A DNA stretch of 64,000 nucleotides from Synechococcus sp. PCC 7336 (GTDB lineage Bacteria; Cyanobacteriota; Cyanobacteriia; Thermostichales; PCC-7336), in the NCBI RefSeq assembly GCF_000332275.1, contig NZ_CM001776.1:1845268-1909267 (forward strand), given 5' to 3'. Below are positions 22,448 to 23,600 of this stretch, piece after piece. The position numbers and the translations under genes were made by a program. How positions within the stretch are numbered: position 1 is the first letter of the stretch; each line of letters starts with the position of its first letter. Below the pieces are notes generated by a model. That model had not been told where the DNA came from and searched no databases. It saw nothing but the letters and a program-made list of their open reading frames with translations.

Positions 22448-23318
22448 CGAACAGGGGTCTCCTCCTTTTGGGTTCGGTTGCAAACATGACGAAATTACGG
22501 AGTTTCTATACTCGCCTTAACCTGCTTATAAACAATTTATTAAGAAAAATTTATTTCGTTTATGACTGGTCTTTGAATGCAGAAGAGAGGCTATAGTTGA
22601 GCTAGTTCGAGTTCTGCCAAAGGAGGCAACCATCTCGGTTTATTTTACTTCTGTCGAAGCATATAGTTCTAGCTCATCTCCCATACAATTATCTCTATCG
22701 AGCGAGTGCAAATGTTACGACACGTCGATTGTAAATATTGACTCTCTTACAACCTGCTCTCCCCTATGCTGCACGAGAGAAAAGTAGCCTGATAGTTGTA
22801 GGCGCTCCGAATATGCAATTAGTAGGTACTCGTCTCTAAATAGTCTTAATCAACAGAGAGAGTTTCGGACTTGTCGAGAGTTATATTGCGAGCCTAAAGT
22901 AGTTTTTTAGACATCCTCAAGGGCTTTCCGTCAGGAGGTTAACTGTTTTTAACTCTATCGTTTCAGAGCTGTAGCAGCGATTCTCCAGATGTCAACCCAA
23001 TATCAGAATAGCAGCTTCAGCAAGTGTCTAGGTATCTCAATCCAACTGTTTAGCTTATCAATCGTGATGGGTCGCTCTGTTGAGGCATTTTCCTCTTTGA
23101 GTCGCCAGAAAAGTTATTTTGATTGGTTAGCTTTGCAGAAAGGGTTGAGTACCTAGTTCGCGTTTGAGCATTGATGTCCAATTTTTTGCCATTTTTGAGA
23201 TCTTGATATTGTGAATCGTAGAAGTGAATTGAGGTGGCTTTCAGAAACTGCTATAGCCGCTCGTTACTGTGTATTCCTCTGAAAAATTTCGATCGCCTGA
23301 GACTTAGGAGGTTGGGTT
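22448..23318. other. Long AT-richer spacer
   Basis: No conserved gene is seen over about 870 bp. Two Shine-Dalgarno-like AGGAGG tracts occur (near 22621 and 22935) without a following start codon. One 55-codon frame runs from ATG 22989 to TAG 23156, but it lacks a ribosome-binding site and resembles no family. The lower GC content differs from flanking genes. Confidence 0.4.
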
Positions 23319-23480
23319 ATGTTGAAGCTAATAGGACAAGTGGGGCGAGCAATTTCAAAAGTCTTTTCTCCTATGCAAAAGACGACGGTTAAGGTCGGAT
23401 TTCAATCCATTACTGCCGATGTTTGCCACAAATCTGACGGTACGGCCTGTCACGCCGACGATTTTCCCCATAATTCTTGA
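23319..23480 (+). CDS. Small cysteine-containing peptide gene (53 aa)
   Basis: A strong ribosome-binding site (TTAGGAGGTT) lies about 7 bp before ATG 23319. The product is MLKLIGQVGRAISKVFSPMQ, then KTTVKVGFQS, and a C-terminus with two cysteines and several histidines (VCHKSDGTACHADDFPHNS). The first half is basic and amphipathic; the second half is acidic with a CHx(6)CH spacing. An intrinsic terminator follows 50 bp after the stop. I know no family for it. It could be a small regulatory, metal-binding or precursor peptide. Signals on both sides argue it is expressed. Confidence 0.55.
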   Translation: MLKLIGQVGRAISKVFSPMQKTTVKVGFQSITADVCHKSDGTACHADDFPHNS

Positions 23481-23529
23481 AATATTGGATTTGATGGTGA
23501 AATTTTAAAGCTGCACAACTCAGTCAGAG

Positions 23530-23558
23530 AATGCCTTGCTTTCGAGTGAGGCATTTTT
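23530..23558 (+). terminator. Intrinsic terminator after the small peptide gene
   Basis: AATGCCT and AGGCATT form a 7-bp stem with a 12-base loop, followed by TTTT. It ends the 23319-23480 transcription unit and also lies between it and the convergent symporter gene. Confidence 0.75.
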
Positions 23559-23600
23559 TAGTATTTCTCTGCATCCCTACCGAGAACTCGGCCTAACTGT

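Follow-up and report, generated by a model that had tools for sequence, protein, structure and literature searches.

Norf1, also called AtpΘ (gene atpT), of Synechocystis sp. PCC 6803 is reportedly treated in Song et al. (Curr Biol 2022). Norf1 is a dark-induced protein of 48 amino acids, confined to cyanobacteria and present in 138 of 202 genomes (PMC5126843). In the same 2016 report, it was described as missing from the Gloeobacteria, from Synechococcus JA-2-3B'a and JA-3-3Ab, and from the marine picocyanobacteria. The gene norf1 is identical to atpT, its product inhibits the ATPase, and its function as an inhibitor of FoF1 ATP hydrolysis is known from Synechocystis 6803 (PMC9241938). AtpΘ is a cyanobacterial means of stopping the ATP synthase from burning ATP in the dark. 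Because a later paper than PMC5126843 gives likely homologues in all cyanobacteria, a homologue in the order considered here may already be implied in the literature.

The gene and its surroundings

The window, i.e., the whole stretch of DNA analysed here, comprises 64,000 nucleotides (positions 1845268-1909267) of the 5.07-Mb single-contig genome of Synechococcus sp. PCC 7336. An open reading frame on its plus strand runs from the ATG at 23319 to the TGA at 23480 (23319-23480) and translates into MLKLIGQVGRAISKVFSPMQKTTVKVGFQSITADVCHKSDGTACHADDFPHNS. We annotate it as the coding sequence of a divergent AtpΘ (Norf1)-like small protein of 53 amino acids, on the basis of orthologues in eight of eight genomes, purifying selection among these, a profile-profile match, and the norf1 primers.

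A Shine-Dalgarno site, AGGAGG (23306-23311, plus strand), lies 7 nt 5' of the ATG, and the stop codon is followed by an intrinsic terminator on the same strand (23526-23559) that consists of a 15-pair stem and a U run. The minimum free energy of the stem is −17.2 kcal/mol (z −4.65), and none of 200 shuffled sequences was equally stable. The gene stands alone as a monocistronic unit. Its right-hand neighbour is a convergent sodium:solute symporter gene, and to the left about 870 bp hold no convincing gene before a hypothetical frame of 126 amino acids. The intergenic region 5' of the gene (22450-23300, about 850 bp) is likewise devoid of a convincing gene. An Rfam match to tsr26 near the gene was rejected as sub-threshold (E 0.037, 28.8 bits versus a cut-off of 141). 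The original prediction had described a compact unit with an AGGAGG site, a 53-codon frame, and an intrinsic terminator, and all three are present as described. It had further spoken of complete expression signals; because no sigma-70 promoter is recognisable upstream of the frame, only the Shine-Dalgarno site and terminator bear this out. An HLR1-like promoter element was also sought upstream, and no site was found within three mismatches.

Orthologues, selection, and the Cys-His pairs

A search of 59 relatives recovered a homologue, at E 1e-5 to 1e-8 per genome, from each of the eight other members of this cyanobacterial order, whereas only weak matches were obtained outside the order. The eight orthologues, two of which are identical as proteins, are all short frames with 33-40% identity to the window protein, and in seven a GGAGGT-type site immediately precedes the start codon. 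In the DNA alignment of six of them, AGGAGGTT ahead of the start is invariant amid a leader that drifts over much of its length. Used alone as a query against genome contigs, the window protein gave no match; the productive searches were those made within the order or with a profile. The window copy and its order-mates differ in their flanks, except for a small exported protein that is encoded near both the window copy and the family gene at locus L016, which is too weak a coincidence to be taken as synteny.

In the small-genome genus (L016, L017, L020, and L021), the leader 5' of the family gene contains the conserved blocks TTCAGGTGCCCTCAACCTGCA and GCTGCGGGCTTTAGCAAT. No Rfam entry matched these blocks at the three loci searched. 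The stability of atpT mRNA is known to be controlled, and this leader is a candidate element for such control.

Selection was estimated on the six close orthologues, with the window copy left out because it is too distant from its nearest relatives. Of the 14 pairs with non-identical proteins, 11 have a dN/dS ratio of 0.08-0.20, and the remaining three pairs (0.40-0.50) are those with the lowest dS. The protein family is under selection, and the window frame is a real gene, beyond chance. The absence of homologues and a dN/dS near one had been named as observations that would speak against the gene; for the family, neither applies, with orthologues in eight of eight genomes and a dN/dS mostly around 0.1. 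Within its clade, the window copy has diverged furthest (end branch 0.91), as might be seen in a spurious frame or a decayed gene that carries a Shine-Dalgarno site and a terminator by accident. However, its start, open frame, Shine-Dalgarno site, and terminator are all intact, and the orthologues, in a set that does not include the window copy itself, are conserved with a dN/dS around 0.1. We regard this explanation as very improbable.

The C-terminal segment CHKSDGTACH (codons 36-45, 23424-23453, plus strand) contains the CHx6CH arrangement that had suggested a metal-binding peptide. The motif is present in the window protein as claimed; in the alignment of the order members (A1), however, the two Cys-His pairs are not jointly conserved. 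The first pair is replaced by YR in all eight orthologues, so that CH at this position is unique to the window genome. The second pair is CH in four orthologues, CY in two, CR in one, and RY in one; its Cys is thus kept in seven of the eight and its His in four. The ten invariant positions of A1 (M1, F16, P18, V26, G27, Q29, I31, T32, D34, and G41) include no Cys and no His, and conserved Cys or His ligands are not found in this alignment. The idea of a metal-binding or redox peptide that uses two Cys-His pairs could draw on the motif of the window's one sequence and on the second Cys of the orthologues. Against it stand the uniform YR, the half-retained second His, and the absence of Cys from most members of the wider, canonical family described below. 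The metal-binding proposal finds no support here, and we judge such a peptide highly improbable.

Relation to the Norf1/AtpΘ family

No entry in Pfam or NCBIfam matched the window frame, and PDB sequence searches with the family gave nothing meaningful. A weak PHROG match (phrog_2582, E 0.0028), which has no description, was set aside, and the family was not found in the phages and viral contigs searched. When the profile of the order members (A1) was run over 390 cyanobacterial genomes, we observed weak matches to short frames such as MAISQMLASIAQYVSEAVMRIFSPTDDAYPVIGVQPFTGEIYKQRTADSW, and the matches from many cyanobacterial families align over the same positions, 3-39. A profile widened with these frames detects members in 301 of the 390 genomes at a membership cut-off of E <= 0.01. 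The family consists of proteins of about 50 amino acids with an amphipathic helix followed by RIF(S/G)P-x-DD-x-YP-xx-GVQPFxG. A search of named genomes returned 300 stretches, and the best 80 of the 300 are cyanobacterial except for one contig. This contig, labelled Gracilibacteria, is probably a mis-binned cyanobacterial contig. Because neither Pfam nor NCBIfam has a model, family members easily remain unannotated or "hypothetical".

The canonical family can be linked to Norf1/AtpΘ through its member in Synechocystis salina, which has 48 amino acids, the same length as Norf1. The published primer Pnorf1_rev (PMC5126843), compared as its reverse complement, matches the ribosome-binding region of the S. 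salina gene at 18 of 21 positions (score 30, shuffled maximum 22), and the distance of the site from the start codon is close to the published one. Probe_norf1_rev, from the same paper, matches in frame at 17 of 21 positions (EMLQDLM versus QMLQDLV), although this second match, taken alone, only equals the shuffled maximum. Judged by these primer sequences, the length, and the taxonomic distribution, the canonical family is Norf1/AtpΘ (atpT). The Synechocystis locus tag ssl2162, tried as a guess, gave no identification.

An hhalign comparison of A1 with the alignment of canonical members (A3) gave a probability of 96.2% (P 2.3e-9). With profiles built from canonical members only, five window-type proteins of the order score 16-21 bits, and a second family member of the window genome, at locus L093, scores 30 bits. 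The window frame ranks first among the 1321 frames of the window with these profiles, but at 7-10 bits (E 0.05-0.3). Because the canonical profiles alone are weak, the case for homology of the window copy depends on its orthologues and L093. In a tree built on 53 columns, to which the usual caution applies, the window-type clade has support of 99/95, and support is 95/87 with L093 as its sister. The gene is homologous to the family that contains Norf1/AtpΘ, and on sequence grounds it is a strongly diverged AtpΘ-like paralogue. The original prediction had called the peptide novel and of unknown family, a view that the profiles and the hhalign match overturn.

The second AtpΘ-like gene lies at 378.8 kb of the same genome (G000:C1:378842-379015; L093:5343-5519) and encodes a protein of 58 amino acids, MKALRNIATQILTFFQNTWKGIGRVFGPPHYDDEAPEVGVHPLKDDIYKEKKRGRHNR. 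The L093 protein, which contains GRVFGPPHYDDEAPEVGVHPLKDDIYK, bridges the forms GVQPFTGEIYK and GYQPITDDIYR. The two copies belong to the same family, but L093 is nearer to the canonical members (30 bits versus 9.6 for the window copy) and keeps GPxxxDDEAPEVGVHP. Because the same genome holds this more canonical copy, the function of the window copy may have shifted. It could be a diverged AtpΘ paralogue that uses its helix and tail to bind a thylakoid complex other than the ATP synthase, with the canonical task left to the copy at 378.8 kb. The two copies, the loss of DDxYP and the changed charge in the window copy, and the several copies in other lineages, including one within a hydrogenase operon, would agree with this. 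In the order's other family, however, no clear member besides the window-type protein was found (one genome there has a weak second match), and the window-type protein is under purifying selection. A sole clear member under such selection fits a retained core role, and we consider a different target unlikely. A related idea is that early-branching cyanobacteria possess a distinct second branch of AtpΘ, in which the window gene, with its altered core and GxACH-type tail, is the most diverged and which controls another complex or responds to redox through its common Cys. We hold this to be a long shot; if true, braking of the ATP synthase would be a two-component or redox-sensitive system in the window lineage.

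A Nif11 domain is present in some of the more distant members of the family. These proteins (L038, L040, L044, L045, L046, L047, and L051) have 94-97 amino acids, with Nif11 placed before the AtpΘ-like helix and tail, and their neighbours, judged by eye, resemble ccmK-type genes, ndhN, and a phosphoketolase gene. NCBIfam calls the two fusions tested RiPP precursors, although they have no GG site and no recognised maturase genes nearby. In the window frame itself, Pfam and NCBIfam gave no match to the Nif11 leader (TIGR03798/PF07862). The original prediction had also suggested a precursor peptide. The small size of the product and the occurrence on some relatives of Nif11, a RiPP leader according to NCBIfam, would suit the precursor of a modified or secreted, RiPP-like peptide. 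However, the would-be core is the conserved part, which forms the body of the protein, the Nif11 fusions lack a GG cleavage site, and we noticed no maturase, protease, or exporter genes beside the window frame. A precursor role is disfavoured to the point of being barely credible.

The family gene often has characteristic neighbours elsewhere. In 60 of the best 80 named loci (L161-L240), mostly from Nostoc and relatives, it adjoins the pncB-nadD-nrtR-nadE cluster of NAD biosynthesis, and the same adjacency occurs in several other cyanobacterial families (L089, L092, L246, L252, and L258). The gene and the cluster are usually divergent (head to head) and about 400-560 bp apart. The two may be regulated together, by energy or pyridine-nucleotide status. 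On the Acaryochloris plasmid pMB02 (L160:4965-5156), an AtpΘ-like gene annotated as a hypothetical protein is located between hoxF and hoxU in the bidirectional hydrogenase operon, and at L037 one lies shortly before a hoxU-like gene.

Proposed function and comparison with known inhibitors

The best explanation, to which we assign a probability of roughly 0.66, is that the window gene encodes a diverged Norf1/AtpΘ, the helix of which would face the membrane or the Fo sector and the tail of which would face the complex, and that this protein would act as a brake on the ATP synthase. AtpΘ itself targets the FoF1 ATP synthase of the thylakoid and keeps it from hydrolysing ATP under a weak proton gradient, as in darkness. 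The N-terminal amphipathic helix may touch the membrane or the Fo sector, and the conserved F[ST]P...VG[FY]Q tail may touch the complex. By homology, the window protein would be located at the thylakoid membrane, where it would act as a brake on FoF1 ATP hydrolysis at low proton-motive force. We infer that the window copy would inhibit the ATP synthase, would be induced at low energy, and may share this work with the second copy. The suggestion of a regulatory peptide is probably right, by way of membership in the Norf1/AtpΘ family.

The thermophilic Synechococcus JA strains, which are early-branching cyanobacteria, are presumably members of the window gene's order. A conserved, diverged AtpΘ throughout the order and two copies in one genome suggest that the brake is older than the 2016 report implied. 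The versions found in the order are natural variants with which important residues could be mapped.

The window copy and the canonical members share a layout in which a helix leads into an extended tail, and both are encoded by a lone gene with a terminator. In the window protein, the N-terminal amphipathic helix and the [IV]F[STA]P turn into which it runs occupy codons 3-20 (23325-23378, plus strand), and the hydrophobic moment of this part is 0.61 (p 0.001 versus shuffles). AlphaFold predicts a helix at residues 4-15, at a low confidence (pLDDT 58) that makes it a hint only; in the S. salina member, a helix is predicted at residues 2-22 with moderate confidence and is followed by an extended tail. 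The segment VGFQSITADV (codons 26-35, 23394-23423, plus strand) is the counterpart of the (T/V)GVQP(F/Y)xGD core in alignments A1, A2, and A4. From the core, the window copy keeps F-S-P, V-G, and Q and has lost DDxYP, the P of QP, and the final G; QP is retained in its orthologues.

The window protein resembles Norf1/AtpΘ of Synechocystis 6803 in its approximate length, its N-terminal amphipathic helix, its F-x-P turn, and its G-[VYF]-Q core. The genes are also alike in standing alone, in having an intrinsic terminator no more than about 100 nt past the stop codon, and in being restricted to cyanobacteria. In contrast to Norf1/AtpΘ, the window copy has neither DDxYP nor PF, carries a C-terminal GxACH-type segment that is shared only within its order, and has no HLR1-like element within three mismatches upstream. 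It is also basic (pI 8.8), whereas the three canonical members compared are acidic (about 4.2). As small proteins that stop ATP hydrolysis by FoF1, the mitochondrial IF1 and the alphaproteobacterial zeta subunit are comparable (PMC9317440), a likeness in the mode of working with no sequence relation claimed. IF1 and zeta block hydrolysis completely, whereas AtpΘ is an only partial, Fo-directed inhibitor (PMC9317440).
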